From: Brachybacterium sp. YJGR34
Lineage (GTDB): Bacteria; Actinomycetota; Actinomycetes; Actinomycetales; Dermabacteraceae
Assembly (NCBI RefSeq): GCF_003347015.1
Contig: NZ_PNFB01000004.1
Span: 124,001-188,000 of the forward strand
DNA length: 64,000 nt
Direction: 5' to 3'
A program made the translations under genes and the position numbers. Within the stretch, counting starts at the first letter, position 1. Each line of letters begins with the position of its first letter. Positions 54,003 to 64,000 of this stretch are shown in pieces. The notes below the pieces were generated by a model. It was not told where the DNA came from. It saw nothing but the letters and a program-made list of their open reading frames with translations, and did not search any database.

Positions 54003-54668
54003 TCAGACCTCGCAGGTGACCAGCGGCATGCGCACCAGCACGTCGTCGTTGTACGTGTCGCTCGACTCACGCAGCAGATTGGACATCCCGACCGTGACCG
54101 TCTCGTCCTGCGTGGCGGTGAAGGTCACCGAGTAGGTCTGCCAGACGGGATCTCCCTCGGACATCGGCAGCGCCTCGGTGCCGTTGAAATCTTCCGGTCG
54201 GGTCGCGACCGCGGTCCGCGCCAGCGAACCGCCGTCCGCACCGGTGACGGTGAGCTGCATGGCCTGCCCGGCCGTCTCCGCCGCTTCCGGGTCCGCAGAT
54301 TCGGCGGACCACTGCCCTGCCGCCTCGAAGGAGATGGTGTAGGTGACCCCCGCGACCACCGGAAGCTCGGCGTCCGTGAAGATCGTCGCGCCCTGGACGA
54401 TGTCGTCCGGGGAGCTGTTGCGCTGCGAGATCCAGGTGTCGACGCCGTCGCGGTTCTGCCAGCTGGTGGTGGAGGTGTCCGTCTCGGCATCGAGCGCACC
54501 GGAGGGCATGGTGGTCTCCCACTCCTCCGCCGCCGGGAGCGTGGGGCACTCCTGGAGCGAGGCGGCGATCGCGGGGGCGGCGACGGCGATGCCCACCACG
54601 GGCGCGGTCCAGGCGACCCCGCGCAGGAGGGCGCGGCGCCGGAGCGGGGCGTCCGATGGGCTGGTCAT
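54003..54668 (-). CDS. Tat-exported beta-sandwich protein of unknown function
   Basis: A 221-residue protein. RRRALLRGVAWTAPVVGIAVAAPAIAA is a signal peptide of Tat type, with cleavage likely after AIAA near residue 35. The mature part contains FTDAELPVVAGVTYTISFEAAG and WQTYSVTFTATQDETVTV, the strand pattern of a CBM-like or jellyroll carbohydrate-binding module, with Cys at both ends (QECPTLP near the start, VTCEV at the end) that may pair. It is 73 bp downstream of the ABC permease gene and may belong to that operon. Confidence 0.65.
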   Translation of the reverse strand: MTSPSDAPLRRRALLRGVAWTAPVVGIAVAAPAIAASLQECPTLPAAEEWETTMPSGALDAETDTSTTSWQNRDGVDTWISQRNSSPDDIVQGATIFTDAELPVVAGVTYTISFEAAGQWSAESADPEAAETAGQAMQLTVTGADGGSLARTAVATRPEDFNGTEALPMSEGDPVWQTYSVTFTATQDETVTVGMSNLLRESSDTYNDDVLVRMPLVTCEV

Positions 54669-58766: not shown

Positions 58767-59471
58767 TCAGCGTCCTTCGGAGGTCTCGGGCCGTTGCTGG
58801 CCGAAGTCCTCGGCACGTTGGCGGATGTCGAGGAAGTGGTCGTCGAGAGCGATGACGGGATCCAGGCGCTCGAGGTCTCGCAGCGCCCGCACGATGGCGG
58901 CGTGGCGCTCGGCGAGGTCGTCGTAGCGCAGGGGCGGGAGGCGGTCGCGCATACGGTCCATGAGCTGCCAGAAGGCCTCGAGGGTCCCCTCGACGACGCG
59001 GTTGTGCAGGTCGACGTACAGGCTGCGGTGGAACTCGCGATCCTCCTCCGGGAAGGCGAGCCCCCGGCTCTCGCGCTCGCGCATCTGCTCGACGATCTCG
59101 TCCAGGTGGGCGAGTCGCTCCTCGTCGAGGCGGCCGGCGACCTCGCGGATCAGTCCGCGCTCGAGGGCGGCGCGGGCCATGAGCAGCTCGTCGAGATCGG
59201 CACCGGACTCGATGAGCTGGTAGGGCAGGCGCGAGATGACCGGGGCCACGGAGAAGGAGCGCAGGAACAGTCCGCGCCCCTGCTGCGCCTCGAGCACCCC
59301 CTGGGATTGCAGGGCGCGGGTCGCCTCCCGGAGCGAGGCGCGGCTGACGCCGAGCTGCTCGGCCAGCACGGCCTCGGAGGGCAGGGCGTCACGGGGCTTC
59401 AGGTCGAGCTGCTGGATGAGCTCCAGCAGATCGCTCTGCAGCGTCTCGAATCGTGCTCCGGTGCGTGCCAT
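58767..59471 (-). CDS. GntR-family regulator (FadR/FCD subfamily)
   Basis: A 234-residue regulator. Winged helix at about residues 10-75 with PSEAVLAEQLGVSRASLREATRALQSQGVLE; FCD ligand domain from about 88 to 220 (LMARAALERGLIREVAGRL; EFHRSLYVDLHNRV; RYDDLAERHAAIVRAL), where Asp/His residues can bind metal. First gene of the operon 54742-59471. A near-perfect palindrome lies 10 bp before its start codon, so it probably represses itself and the operon. Confidence 0.92.
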   Translation of the reverse strand: MARTGARFETLQSDLLELIQQLDLKPRDALPSEAVLAEQLGVSRASLREATRALQSQGVLEAQQGRGLFLRSFSVAPVISRLPYQLIESGADLDELLMARAALERGLIREVAGRLDEERLAHLDEIVEQMRERESRGLAFPEEDREFHRSLYVDLHNRVVEGTLEAFWQLMDRMRDRLPPLRYDDLAERHAAIVRALRDLERLDPVIALDDHFLDIRQRAEDFGQQRPETSEGR

Positions 59472-59480
59472 GACGGCAAG

Positions 59481-59498
59481 TTATCAGATATCTGACAA
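59481..59498. promoter_or_regulatory. GntR/FadR-type operator
   Basis: TTATCAGATATCTGACAA is an 18-bp palindrome with 16 of 18 positions symmetrical, centred on GATATC. It lies 10 bp upstream of the GntR start, in the position expected for autoregulation; the spacing and half-sites (TTGTCAGAT) are typical of FadR-group operators. Confidence 0.7.
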
Positions 59499-59612
59499 GT
59501 GGGGGCGTCCGTGGTTCGGCCGATTGGGGCAGGGGGCGTGCTTGCGCCTGCCCGTGGATCGTGGTGATCTGTGCGGGTGGGCCCCGCGGCGCCAGGGAGG
59601 TTCGATCCGCAT

Positions 59613-60155
59613 ATGACCGCCATCCGCTCGCGGACTGCGCCTCGCCGGCTCCCCTTGTTCGGGCGCCTGCGTGTGGTCCTCGCTGCGGGGCTGGTCCTCG
59701 GGCTCGGGGCGACGTCGACGGTCGCGACGTGGACGGATTCGGAGCGCGTGACCGCGAGCTTCGAGGCGGGCGTGGTCCCCGCGCCGAGACTCACCCAGGC
59801 GTGCCGCTTCGTACCCGGGGTCCTCGGGATCGGCGCGAGGGTGCGTGTGTTCTGGGCCCTCCCGGAGGGGTACACGCTCAGCGACGTCCGGGTCGAGGCG
59901 TCGACCCGCGGACTCGGGTCCGTGCTCGCACCGCTGACGGGTTTCAGCCTGACCGCCAACACCCAGCGCCAGAGCGACGGCACCTATCGCACCGACGTCC
60001 CGACGAACCTCCTGGGAGGGCTGCTCGGGCTGGGGTCGGAGCTGGAGATCGCGTTCCGGGTCGTCGACGGCGGCTGGGAGTCGACCCGTGCCTCAGTCGC
60101 GAGCAATGCCGGCCTGATCGGCGGGATCGGTGGGAACTGCCGCAATCTGAGCTGA
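59613..60155 (+). CDS. SipW-type signal protein (secreted/surface), unknown function
   Basis: A 180-residue exported protein. The signal has VVLAAGLVLGLGATSTVATWTDSE, close to the signal of the next gene (AGGLVLGVGAAVTLAAWTDEE): both keep GLVLGxGAxxTxAxWTDxE, the pattern recognised by SipW-type peptidases in TasA/CalY-like proteins. The mature part is beta-rich (YTLSDVRVEAST, ELEIAFRVVDGGWE). ATG 59613 is taken as start; AGGGAGG is 11 nt upstream, a little distant. A palindromic operator and the GntR gene are on the left, divergent. Confidence 0.75.
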   Translation: MTAIRSRTAPRRLPLFGRLRVVLAAGLVLGLGATSTVATWTDSERVTASFEAGVVPAPRLTQACRFVPGVLGIGARVRVFWALPEGYTLSDVRVEASTRGLGSVLAPLTGFSLTANTQRQSDGTYRTDVPTNLLGGLLGLGSELEIAFRVVDGGWESTRASVASNAGLIGGIGGNCRNLS

Positions 60156-60261
60156 CGGGCGCGCCTCCACGGCGCGAACCGGGGCCGGCTGCGCCCGTGC
60201 CTCGCTGTGGGCGGCGTCGGCCGTCTTCCGTCAAGGCGGCGCGCGACGGCACCGCAGTCGC

Positions 60262-60267
60262 TAGTCT
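60262..60267 (+). promoter_or_regulatory. possible -10 box
   Basis: TAGTCT lies 41 nt before the ATG of the second SipW-substrate gene (60308), in the 152-bp gap after the first one, suggesting a separate promoter. Confidence 0.35.
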
Positions 60268-60307
60268 GGCCGTGCGAGATCGCCACTGCGTCGTGAGGGG
60301 AACACCG

Positions 60308-60919
60308 ATGTCCACTGCCACCACCAACTCCACCCGACGCGGACGAAAGATCCGCGCCCTCCTCGCCGGCGGTCTGGTGCTCGGAGTGGGAGCAGCCGTC
60401 ACGCTCGCCGCGTGGACCGACGAGGAATGGGCGATCGGCACCTTCGGGGCCGGGAGCTTCAACGTCGAGGGCAGCACCGACGGCACCACCTTCGCCGATC
60501 ACACCTCGGCAGACGGCGCGGCGGAGCTGGCCTTCGATCTCGAGGCGGCGGAGAACCTCACGCCCGATGACGTCGTGGCCGCCCCCTTCGTCCTCCGCCT
60601 GGATGCGGACACCAGCTACGACGCCGTCGTGGAGCTGACCGATGTGAGCGGAGCGGGGGCGAACGCCGCGAACCTGACCTACGGGATCATCACCGTGCCC
60701 TCGGCCGCAGAGTGCACGGCCGCCGCCACCGGCACCGAGATCGTCCCCGCGGGAACCGGACTCGATGCCGGCACCGGCACCTTCGACCTCACCGCCGGCA
60801 CCGAGGGGGCTGCCGGCGACGAGGTCACCCTCTGCTTCCGGGTCACCGCCGGTCCCGACCTGGTGCAGGGCGAGTCCGGCACTGCGACGTGGGGGTTCAC
60901 TGCCACATCGGCCGAGTGA
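60308..60919 (+). CDS. SipW-type signal, TasA/CalY-like secreted protein
   Basis: A 203-residue protein with signal KIRALLAGGLVLGVGAAVTLAAWTDEE and mature part of TasA/CalY style: WAIGTFGAGSFNVEG, strand-rich core (DTSYDAVVELTDVSG; VTLCFRVTAG) and two Cys (SAAECTAA, VTLCFRV). Related proteins form surface fibres or are secreted together with a dedicated signal peptidase; the next gene codes for such a peptidase. Ends 43 bp before that gene. Confidence 0.8.
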   Translation: MSTATTNSTRRGRKIRALLAGGLVLGVGAAVTLAAWTDEEWAIGTFGAGSFNVEGSTDGTTFADHTSADGAAELAFDLEAAENLTPDDVVAAPFVLRLDADTSYDAVVELTDVSGAGANAANLTYGIITVPSAAECTAAATGTEIVPAGTGLDAGTGTFDLTAGTEGAAGDEVTLCFRVTAGPDLVQGESGTATWGFTATSAE

Positions 60920-60962
60920 TGGCGTCGCGGCTGGTCGTACCGCCCTGCGCGGGGTCGGAGCG

Positions 60963-62243
60963 ATGAGAGCTCGGATCCCGTCCACCGGCACGAGAGCGGT
61001 GCGGCGACTGGGTGACCTCCTGCTCACGCTTCTGGCCGCCGGCGGTGCGCTGTGCATCGTGCTGGTGATCCTCAGCGTGTTCTTCAGCATCTCGATCATG
61101 ATGTTCCGCACCGGATCGATGAGCCCGACGATCACCGCCGGCTCGATCGCCCTGGTGCGTGAGATCCCGGCGGTCGAGATGTCCGAGGGGGATGTCGTCA
61201 CCGTCGACCGTGGCGAGGGCATGCTTCCGGTGACGCATCGGGTCGTCGAGATCCGCGCGCGCGACAGCACCTCCGGCGAGGTCACCTTCACGATGCAGGG
61301 CGACGCCAACGACGTCCCGGACCCCGACGCCTACTCCGCCGTCGAGGTGCGGCGCGTGATGTTCTCCGTCCCCGGGGCGGCGGGCGTGGTCCAGTGGTTC
61401 GGTGATCCGCTCGTCCTCGGGGCGCTCACCCTCGGCGCCGCCACCCTTGTGGTCTGGGCCTTCTGGCCGCGGGCCGATGATCCCGACGGCGGCCTGCAGG
61501 CCGTCCGGAGCTCCTCCCCTCGCGAGCCCCCATCGCACACGGCGTTCGGCGTGCCCGCTCTCGCCGCCCTGGTGCTCGCGGCTCCTGCACTCGGCCACGC
61601 CGACGTCACCCTGACCACGGGCGAGCACCTGCGCATCCAGACCGAGGGGGACCCCGGCCAGATGCAGAACCTCGCCCCCGGTGACTCCGCGGTGTGGGAG
61701 GTCGGGATCTGGGCGGAGGCGCCGGAGCCCGGGGAGATCCGGCTCGGTCTCACCGGGCGCGGTGATCTGGTCGAGGCCCCGGGCGCGCTGCTGGTCACCG
61801 TGGACAGCTGTGGAGAGCCCTGGCGTGCCGAGACGTGTCGGTCGGGTCCGACGACGCTGCTGGACGAACAGAACCTCGCCGATATCGCTGCGCAGTCGAG
61901 GAGTCACCACCTTGCCGCCATGCCCAGCGATCAGCAGCGCTGGCTGCGTATCACGGTCACCCTCTCGGAGGCGGCCGGGCTGCACGGCCTGGAGGGCGCC
62001 CGGGGTGACGTGCTCATCCATGCTGCCGGCGCCGGGGAGCATCTCACCTCCGCGGGTCCCTCGCCCGTGGCGCCGGAGGTCGATGGCGAGGATGGCCGTG
62101 CGGCCGACGGCGCGGGCCTGGCCAGGACCGGTGCCGCCGGTCTGCTTTCGGTGGTCGTCGCGGCCCTCGTCCTCGGCATCGTCGGCGCCGCTCTGGGGTG
62201 GGCTGCGCGACGGTCGGGGAGTTCGCGGCCTCCAGTCTCCTGA
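60963..62243 (+). CDS. SipW-type signal peptidase fused to an exported domain with LAxTG sorting signal
   Basis: A 426-residue chimera. Residues 1 to about 180 are a type I signal peptidase of the SipW/ER class: helix at 20-48, RTGSMSPTI with Ser52 as nucleophile, VTHRVVEI with His92 replacing the bacterial Lys, MQGDANDVPDP near 112-122, and a second helix. From about residue 200 a new hydrophobic stretch (AFGVPALAALVLAAPALGHA) leads into a beta-rich domain (GQMQNLAPGDSAVWEVGIWAEAPEPGEI; SCGEPWRAETCRSG). The end is LARTG (386-390), a hydrophobic helix and AARRSG, the layout of a class E sortase signal. Many actinobacteria have the peptidase and the second domain as separate neighbouring genes, so this looks like a fusion. 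Confidence 0.85.
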   Translation: MRARIPSTGTRAVRRLGDLLLTLLAAGGALCIVLVILSVFFSISIMMFRTGSMSPTITAGSIALVREIPAVEMSEGDVVTVDRGEGMLPVTHRVVEIRARDSTSGEVTFTMQGDANDVPDPDAYSAVEVRRVMFSVPGAAGVVQWFGDPLVLGALTLGAATLVVWAFWPRADDPDGGLQAVRSSSPREPPSHTAFGVPALAALVLAAPALGHADVTLTTGEHLRIQTEGDPGQMQNLAPGDSAVWEVGIWAEAPEPGEIRLGLTGRGDLVEAPGALLVTVDSCGEPWRAETCRSGPTTLLDEQNLADIAAQSRSHHLAAMPSDQQRWLRITVTLSEAAGLHGLEGARGDVLIHAAGAGEHLTSAGPSPVAPEVDGEDGRAADGAGLARTGAAGLLSVVVAALVLGIVGAALGWAARRSGSSRPPVS

Positions 62244-62299
62244 GCCTCCTGAGCATCTGTGCTTCGGGGCGATGGAACGTGCGGAGCGTGGGGTGATCG

Positions 62300-62323
62300 G
62301 CGCGCGGGGCCGCGCCCGCGCGC
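62300..62323 (+). terminator. hairpin after the SipW operon
   Basis: A perfect 9-bp stem GCGCGCGGG (62300-62308) / CCCGCGCGC (62315-62323) with a 6-nt loop, followed by GCTTTCC. It begins 57 nt after the stop of the SipW fusion. Confidence 0.6.
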
Positions 62324-62695
62324 GCTTTCCGACATGCGCCGTCACTGTCGTGCGAAGGGTCGTGAGCGGCGCCTGAGGTCAGTGTCGAGCCGGAGAGGGG
62401 GTGTGGAGAACCTCGTGCACTCAAGGGGAAAAAACTCTGACCCTACCAAGAGGTGTGATCAATGGGTAGTTACTCGCTGGTCATTACAGGCCCTCTCGGA
62501 AAGCGCTTGGAAAGATTGTGACGGTTGGTAACTTTCTGGCAACAAGTGCACGGCTGTCCAGAAGAAGCATTCCGCTGCGGGGCGGCGCCTGCGAGGCTGT
62601 CGAGGTCACCTGTGTGACCCCGCCCACCGCGTAGGCCTTCCCCCTTGGTGCGCTCGTGCGGGCCCTGTCCCCGACTCATCGATGATGGAGTGAAT
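62324..62695 (+). promoter_or_regulatory. AT-richer upstream region of the choice-of-anchor G gene
   Basis: This 372-bp gap contains a clearly less GC-rich stretch (about 62420-62560, with GGGGAAAAAACTC and TGGTAACTTTCTGG). Its position suggests the promoter and leader of the gene at 62696. No clear -10/-35 pair or palindrome can be assigned, and there is no credible reading frame. Confidence 0.4.
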
Positions 62696-64000
62696 GTGGA
62701 ACGACTGCAGCCCCCACGATCCTCGACGCACCGAGGGAGCCCACCCCTCCTGAAGGGCGTTGTCGCGGCCGTCGCCGCAGCGAGCCTGACCCTTCTCGGA
62801 CTCCCGCCGGCGGTCGCCGCCGAGACGGACGACTCCGAAGCGCTGGGCCGCGTGATCAACGCCGATGCGCTGGGTCTCGACCTGGCCGATGTCGGCACCA
62901 GCGCCTCCGGCTTCCCGAGCGATGCGGGCCCGAACGCCAACCCGCTGAACGTCGGCCTGATCGACGACTCGATCGCGCTCGACCTCGGCACTCTCACCCT
63001 GCCGCTGATCGGCGACGAGAACAACGTCGGCCTGCTGCACCTCGGCGAGGCGGGGGCTCTCTCGAGCTTCGCCACGTCGCCGGATGCGGTCAGCTCGACC
63101 GCGAGCGCCGGAGCCGTGGGGGAAGGCGGAGGCCTGGACCTCGACGGGATCGCGAATGGCACGTACGGCACCTCCCGCGTCGACCTGACGACCCTGCTCG
63201 CGCAGGCGGGTGTGGACGGGCTGACCGATGACATCGTCGACGAGCTCGCTCTCGAGCTCGGCGCCATGGGGTCCACGGCCTCGGAGGCCAACGGGGAGAC
63301 CTCGTCCGAGTACGTGATCGTGGACGGTCAGCTGATGATCAGCTCGCCGCTGGTCGGGGAGCTCGCCACCGAGCTCGACACCGCGGTGACAGGCGTCGGC
63401 ACGACTCTCGACGCGGCCGTCGGGGCGGAAGGTGCGCTGGGAAGCATCGCGCAGGCCGCGTCGATCGATCTCAATGTCGGCCTGGTCGCCGTCGAGGCCG
63501 GCGGCGGGACGATCGGACTGACGGGGCTCGACGCGGCGCTCGAGCAGGCGAGCTCCTCGCTCCTCGAGCAGCCGTTGACCGATGAGAACGGCCTGGTCTC
63601 CATCAGCCTTGCGGACGGGACCATCGCTGTCGACCTGCAGCAGCTGGGCGGAGCGGACGGCCTCAACGGCCTCCCCGCGAACACCGAGCTCCTGGACGCG
63701 GAGACCATCGGACTGATCACGGGAGCCACGAGCGAAGCTCTCGGCACCGTCTCCGAGCGTGCCGGTCAGGTGCTCATCGACGACGTGTTCAACACTGTCG
63801 GTCTCACGGTCGAGCTCCCCGCCTCGGTCTCGGCCCTCGGGCTGCCCGCGGCCGATGTCGACATCGTCGTGGAGACGACGCTCGGCCAGCTCGCCGGCAC
63901 CGCCGAGGGCGAGCCGACCATCGACATCGACGGAAGCCTGCTCGGTATCATCCCGATCGGCACTCTGCTCGATGCGGTCGAGCCGGTTCTCGAGACCGTC
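62696..64000 (+). CDS. choice-of-anchor G family surface protein (3' truncated by window end)
   Basis: The frame is open for 435 codons to the last base and has no stop in the window. GTG 62696 is preferred because GGAG lies 5 nt upstream; GTG 62690 is possible. A signal peptide of about 41 residues (LLKGVVAAVAAASLTLLGLPPAVAA) is followed by EALGRVINADALGLDLADVG, a long Ala/Gly/Asp-rich exported region, and repeated segments such as LIDDSIALDLGTLTLPLIGDENNVGLLHLGEAGALSSF-type strands. This is the pattern of the choice-of-anchor G family of Gram-positive surface proteins. The C-terminal anchor lies beyond the window. It follows the SipW locus and may share its secretion context. Confidence 0.8.
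   Translation, partial: MERLQPPRSSTHRGSPPLLKGVVAAVAAASLTLLGLPPAVAAETDDSEALGRVINADALGLDLADVGTSASGFPSDAGPNANPLNVGLIDDSIALDLGTLTLPLIGDENNVGLLHLGEAGALSSFATSPDAVSSTASAGAVGEGGGLDLDGIANGTYGTSRVDLTTLLAQAGVDGLTDDIVDELALELGAMGSTASEANGETSSEYVIVDGQLMISSPLVGELATELDTAVTGVGTTLDAAVGAEGALGSIAQAASIDLNVGLVAVEAGGGTIGLTGLDAALEQASSSLLEQPLTDENGLVSISLADGTIAVDLQQLGGADGLNGLPANTELLDAETIGLITGATSEALGTVSERAGQVLIDDVFNTVGLTVELPASVSALGLPAADVDIVVETTLGQLAGTAEGEPTIDIDGSLLGIIPIGTLLDAVEPVLETV

Follow-up and report, generated by a model that had tools for sequence, protein, structure and literature searches.

Recurrent fusion of a SipW-type signal peptidase and a wall-sorted beta-sandwich domain in actinobacterial SipW loci

The window, that is, the whole stretch of DNA analyzed here (64,000 nucleotides), contains at positions 60963-62243 of the forward strand one open frame of 426 amino acids without an inner stop, in which a signal peptidase is followed by an exported domain. 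This locus raises the question of whether the two halves form a true fusion or were joined by an assembly error, and, if the fusion is true, what a signal peptidase joined to a wall-sorted protein may do. The features of the locus are the following:

59571..60155, + strand: second protein with a SipW-dependent-type signal peptide (TIGR04088, 30.5 bits, cut-off 19)
60308..60919, + strand: protein with a SipW-dependent-type signal peptide (TIGR04088, 33.1 bits, cut-off 19; scanned from 60314, start read from the frame), likely a SipW substrate
60963..62243, + strand: fusion of a SipW-type signal peptidase and a wall-sorted domain, 426 aa (ORF translation, TIGR02228, alignment A1)
61005..61121, + strand: hydrophobic segment 1, residues 15-53 (hydropathy; helix 11-41 in the AlphaFold model)
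61056..61346, + strand: TIGR02228 match, residues 32-128 (57.9 bits)
61116-61118, 61236-61238, 61302-61304, and 61320-61322, + strand: catalytic-type residues Ser52, His92, Asp114, and Asp120, respectively (invariant in all 86 distinct peptidases)
61398..61469, + strand: hydrophobic segment 2, residues 146-169 (hydropathy; helix 149-166 in the AlphaFold model)
61470..61535, + strand: variable linker, residues 170-191, probably on the cytoplasmic side (low pLDDT at 172-190; length varies in alignment A1)
61536..61601, + strand: hydrophobic segment 3, residues 192-213 (to 217 by hydropathy), with the candidate cleavage site GHA|D; split relatives have their signal peptide here
61602..62060, + strand: exported beta-sandwich domain, residues 214-366 (alignment A2, model pLDDT, fold searches)
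62118..62132, + strand: LARTG sorting signal, residues 386-390 (translation, alignment A1)
62133..62240, + strand: C-terminal membrane segment and Arg-containing tail (hydropathy)
62645..64000, + strand: start of the next gene downstream, encoding a 1492-aa choice-of-anchor G protein (NF033766, 219.8 bits, cut-off 45)

From the N- to the C-terminus, the protein consists of a SipW/ER-type signal peptidase, two successive hydrophobic segments, the beta-sandwich domain, LARTG, a membrane segment, and the Arg-containing tail. The original prediction had placed a protease, an exported domain with its own hydrophobic segment, and an LAxTG signal in one protein, and all of these parts were recovered by the TIGR02228 match, the hydropathy profile, and the translation. 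Four hydrophobic stretches were found by hydropathy, at residues 15-53, 146-169, 192-217, and 384-416. AlphaFold modeled the full-length protein with a mean pLDDT of 76.1 and a pTM of 0.47.

Signal peptidases I of the ER/archaeal type use a catalytic Ser and a His with an Asp, not a Ser-Lys pair. The N-terminal half of the fusion belongs to this type, as its TIGR02228 score exceeds the cut-off of 51.85 bits and the Ser, His, and both Asp residues are kept in all the collected peptidases. In a Foldseek search with the whole-protein model, a chain of human SPC-C (7p2q) ranked second and the TasA fibre (8aur) fourteenth. The equivalog model for Bacillus SipW (NF046067) gave only 43 bits, far below its cut-off of 190, and in this respect the peptidase differs from the SipW of Bacillus subtilis.

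A frame error in the assembly, for example a base missing near 61500 that joined two genes, had been named as the finding that would overturn the prediction. Such an error is not far-fetched in itself: the same genome has a split copy of the two genes in two different frames, and a single indel could be enough to merge a pair of this kind. One of the two remaining forward frames is closed by stops near the junction, and the other stays open through it to about 61612; because of this second frame, the frames alone are insufficient to decide the matter. Nevertheless, the third-position G+C content stays at 0.82-0.94 in windows across residues 121-250 and does not change abruptly where the halves meet, and the same one-frame join was found in 15 other rows of alignment A1 (rows picked as fused), in 39 of the 86 distinct peptidases of the fetched loci, and in other genomes including the single-contig assemblies G010 and G024. 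A lost base was rejected on these grounds as having practically no chance of being the explanation, and the fusion at 60963-62243 is confirmed as real.

A comparison of homologues for fused and split genes, proposed together with the prediction, revealed both forms. The 86 distinct peptidases, defined by an E-value below 1e-25 and at least 130 matched profile positions (weaker or partial ones, e.g., L015, L021, and L093, were excluded), comprise 39 fused forms, 21 split forms with the exported gene next, 8 split forms in the reversed order, and 18 lone peptidases, where lone means that no exported domain lies in the available stretch, which was often a 1.5 kb flank or was ended by a contig end.

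In the genus of the source, a match was found in 12 of 38 genomes, six of which (G000, G003, G009, G010, G024, and G026) have the one-frame fusion. An order-level scan of 396 genomes at an E-value of 1e-20 yielded matches in 79. The fused form was found in at least 31 of these 396 genomes, belonging to six family codes and including one (G226) cut by the contig end; this number is a lower bound, with 18 places from the scan left unclassified. In a phylum-level scan of 396 genomes at an E-value of 1e-30, matches were found in 5 genomes, 4 of them from the source's own order and the fifth being G679. Named records with the fusion include Brevibacterium (six), Enteractinococcus helveticum, a Micrococcaceae MAG, Micromonospora (two), and an Actinomycetales MAG. 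The fusion therefore recurs across several actinobacterial families and is not unique to the source genome.

The source genome itself (G000) carries both forms, namely the fusion and a split pair on contig C33. This second SipW locus (L020:1441-2972) has separate genes for the peptidase and an LAATG wall protein, together with SipW-type neighbours of its own. In 17 of the 21 split loci with the peptidase first, the peptidase stop overlaps a candidate start of the exported gene by 4 bases; as a TGA stop preceded by A, G, or T makes such a start automatically, the informative part of this count is the shared frame relation. In G237 (L089:2374-3918), the peptidase and the exported domain lie in one frame with a single TAG between them, an intermediate of the split and fused forms.

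On the peptidase tree, the fused state requires 9 changes, at least 5 of which are forced by well-supported branches, and gains and losses are indistinguishable. The source protein belongs to an all-fused clade of 26 rows that also contains Brevibacterium and Enteractinococcus. This clade is supported at 100/98 in a tree lacking ten of the 86 sequences (L103, L104, L105, L106, L107, L108, L109, L112, L113, and L116) and at 98 in a quick tree lacking the last seven of these.

The peptidase is linked to genes for SipW-type signal peptides, as expected of a SipW-dependent secretion locus: both such genes of the source, starting at 59571 and 60308, lie upstream of the fusion. At least one same-strand gene of this kind was found in all 39 fused, all 29 split, and 12 of the 18 lone loci, as counted with our own profile from alignment A3, the ten rows of which come from some of the counted loci. 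A further SipW-type signal peptide was observed downstream of the fusion in 17 of the 39 fused loci, 1.2-1.5 kb after the peptidase start (L027, L029, L034, L049, L052, L055, L057, and others) or, in L007, 2.3 kb after it; in the source, the second such gene lies upstream, at 59571. A promoter and terminator scan of 59300-63000 gave a single promoter-like site, located on the opposite strand.

Class E sortases display LAXTG proteins (PMC5148588). The search for a class E sortase, which had been suggested along with the prediction, was successful: the only PF04203 match in the source genome is a sortase of this class (NF033747, 259.5 bits, cut-off 160). The C-terminal half of the fusion thus combines LARTG, a hydrophobic stretch, a basic tail, and a cognate type of sortase gene in the genome, as expected of a wall protein sorted by class E sortase. 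Two LepB-type signal peptidases above the TIGR02227 cut-off were also found in this genome.

The exported domain, modeled separately with a mean pLDDT of 94.5, has two Cys residues (Cys283 and Cys292) that are invariant in all 26 aligned exported domains of alignment A2. In the Foldseek search, its top match was the TasA fibre 8aur (E-value 4.8e-5, probability 1.00, TM-score 0.59 by query length, 12% identity). In VIA-align, the best match was FnBPA (4b60) with a Z of 9.4, followed by six more MSCRAMM entries at 8.6-9.2, and TasA reached 8.3 over 129 residues. Because the MSCRAMM scores equal or exceed that of TasA, and a best Z of 7-8 is typical of models that match nothing clearly, TasA is not singled out by the fold.

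The exported-domain profile matched a set of substrates encoded beside the peptidase with a probability of 86.9 (E-value 4.1e-6, 116 columns), but this set (sub2) was mixed and included the source's first-type gene and single-substrate loci. Against the cleaner alignment A4, which retains 39 of 55 listed rows, the probability was 87.9 (E-value 3.2e-6, 114 columns). The other two substrate sets gave weak or absent matches (26.6 and 0.1), and A3, representing the source's own substrate type, gave 3.0. Among the controls, reversed profiles did not exceed 2.3, and 20 column shuffles for each of three sets did not exceed 1.0. These comparisons of profiles suggest that the exported domain is distantly akin to one of three families of SipW substrates.

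No match to PF12389 (TasA/camelysin) was found in the fusion or in the 26 exported domains by Pfam at E-values up to 0.1, and TasA was absent from PDB sequence searches with the exported domain and the substrate alignments A3 and A4. The best PDB rows for A4, cytokine receptor beta chains with an E-value of 0.0011, were taken as a chance likeness between beta-sandwich proteins. Pfam matches to five families were found among the 26 exported domains, including the LPXTG anchor in two of them, and no family matched that of the source protein. For six substrates, Pfam gave a single sub-threshold PF12389 row (E-value 0.12, 12.7 bits, cut-off 22.5), located in the signal-peptide part.

We propose that this true and recurrent fusion represents a biogenesis module of an actinobacterial SipW locus, the exported half being an anchor or nucleator for TasA-like subunits, and we lean modestly towards this reading. 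The N-terminal half would act as a membrane-bound SipW/ER-type peptidase with Ser, His, and Asp, and, judging from gene linkage, would cut the SipW-type signal peptides from the secreted proteins encoded nearby. Segment 3 would re-enter the membrane and export the second half, a predicted wall-sorted beta-sandwich protein that in many relatives is encoded by the next gene, and the class E sortase would join this half to the wall at LARTG. There it may anchor, and perhaps nucleate, TasA-like subunits, as is ascribed to TapA in B. subtilis; this role is proposed because of the TasA-like fold and the distant likeness to SipW substrates. TapA proper has an N-terminal strand by which a TasA subunit is completed and the fibre initiated. 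We know of no fibre in these bacteria.

Alternatively, the sorted domain may be an MSCRAMM-like adhesin of general function, independent of the SipW substrates, with the fusion a by-product of adjacent overlapping genes. The seven top rows of VIA-align are MSCRAMM adhesins, and overlapping genes fuse readily. However, a domain of this kind would not readily account for the wide margin by which the profile match to neighbouring substrates exceeds the reversed and shuffled controls, for a same-strand SipW-type signal peptide gene in 68 of 68 fused and split loci, or for a fused state that changed at least five times on the tree and was kept through a whole clade, and we consider the adhesin unlikely. 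Returning to the biogenesis module, its two halves could separate at segment 3 or stay joined.

The original prediction that the peptidase part itself releases the second half is unsupported though not disproved. The model of SipW-type signal peptides, TIGR04088, has no match in the fusion protein, so the exported half shows no SipW-type signal peptide of its own like that of TasA/camelysin proteins. Furthermore, segment 3 of the split relatives resembles a conventional signal peptide and has an AxA-type site, and the two LepB-type peptidases are present in the genome. Thus, the original interpretation was correct on the component parts and their fusion, on the LAxTG signal, and on the class E sortase, but self-release is not supported.

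A site with Ala at -1 and a small residue at -3, located 2-14 residues past the hydrophobic core, was found in 17 of 26 rows of the source's clade, in all 29 split relatives, and in 12 of 13 other fusions. Ala or Val at -3 was present in 6 of 26, 25 of 29, and 11 of 13, respectively. Fisher tests of 26 against 42 gave 5e-4 for a small residue and 3e-7 for Ala or Val at -3, values that ignore relatedness and refer to groups set post hoc; the site rule is crude, and its strict form was set after a first count that allowed sites within the core. The clade also has a proline among the first 8 core residues in 26 of 26 rows (2 of 29 split relatives, 2 of 13 other fusions) and a longer spacing from core to domain (median 24 residues, versus 13 in split relatives and 17 in other fusions).

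The site in this clade is often weak, and therefore the halves may stay joined. In that case, segment 3 would be a permanent anchor, the sortase would link the fused domain to peptidoglycan, and the peptidase would be covalently stapled to the wall where the subunits are released. The reduced frequency of the site, the clade-wide early proline, the long stretch before the domain, and the strong support of the clade agree with this reading, which we regard as tentative and doubtful. A permanent anchor is not favoured by the segment itself, whose length and hydrophobicity in the clade fall below those in split relatives (median uncharged run 18 versus 22; median best 19-residue mean hydropathy 1.71 versus 2.03), and a G-x-A site directly before the domain is still kept in the source protein and in 4 of its 5 same-genus fused relatives. 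The source protein keeps a site fit for use, GHA|D, and cleavage of segment 3 at this candidate site by a LepB-type peptidase appears a little more likely than non-cleavage. Somewhat unlikely, in our estimation, is the evolutionary form of the joined reading, in which a former signal peptide turned into a permanent membrane segment throughout one large clade, leaving an active wall-stapled peptidase as a fixed site for the release and assembly of TasA-like subunits.

The closest described system is the tapA-sipW-tasA locus of B. subtilis, in which a SipW-type peptidase is likewise encoded beside secreted subunits. In PMC10151520, the sipW start is overlapped by the stop of tapA, the nucleator gene, and the authors read this overlap as a hint of association. 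A role in anchoring TasA to the wall (PMC9674648) and in starting TasA fibres (PMC9674648 and PMC10151520) has been proposed for TapA. In contrast to B. subtilis, the partner in the present locus lies downstream of the peptidase, is fused to it, carries a sorting signal, and lacks a TIGR04088-type signal peptide. The split loci of actinobacteria (Microbacterium, Ruania, Pseudactinotalea, Agrococcus, and the source's own C33) share the peptidase family, the family of sorted beta-sandwich proteins, and the SipW-type neighbours, but they have two genes, with the exported one first in Ruania, Pseudactinotalea, and Agrococcus. The Streptomyces chaplins ChpA, ChpB, and ChpC, which are class E sortase substrates, have a similar LAXTG-type sorting signal, and the accessible part of PMC5148588 describes no joining of them to a peptidase.

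Neither a fusion of a peptidase with a wall protein nor a sortase-anchored counterpart of TapA in actinobacteria is described in the open-access literature, among the matches listed. That a SipW-type peptidase is naturally joined to a wall-sorted partner argues circumstantially for cooperation between the two, and it hints at a coupling of signal-peptide trimming with wall attachment; in Bacillus, the link between peptidase and partner is only hinted at by the gene overlap (PMC10151520). The fusion suggests that actinobacteria have a sortase-anchored counterpart of TapA, and a single protein is enough to test the coupling. Should the two halves remain together, a signal peptidase would be covalently tied to the wall.

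Two further proteins were observed in the source genome. The choice-of-anchor G protein downstream of the fusion (also L117:3246-7724) contains many NTEVN/NTAEN-like repeats and ends, past the 64,000-nt window, with LARTG, a membrane segment, and an Arg tail. The protein encoded at 54003-54668 of the reverse strand has a twin-arginine-like N-terminus (RRRALLRG) and is apparently unrelated to the fusion.
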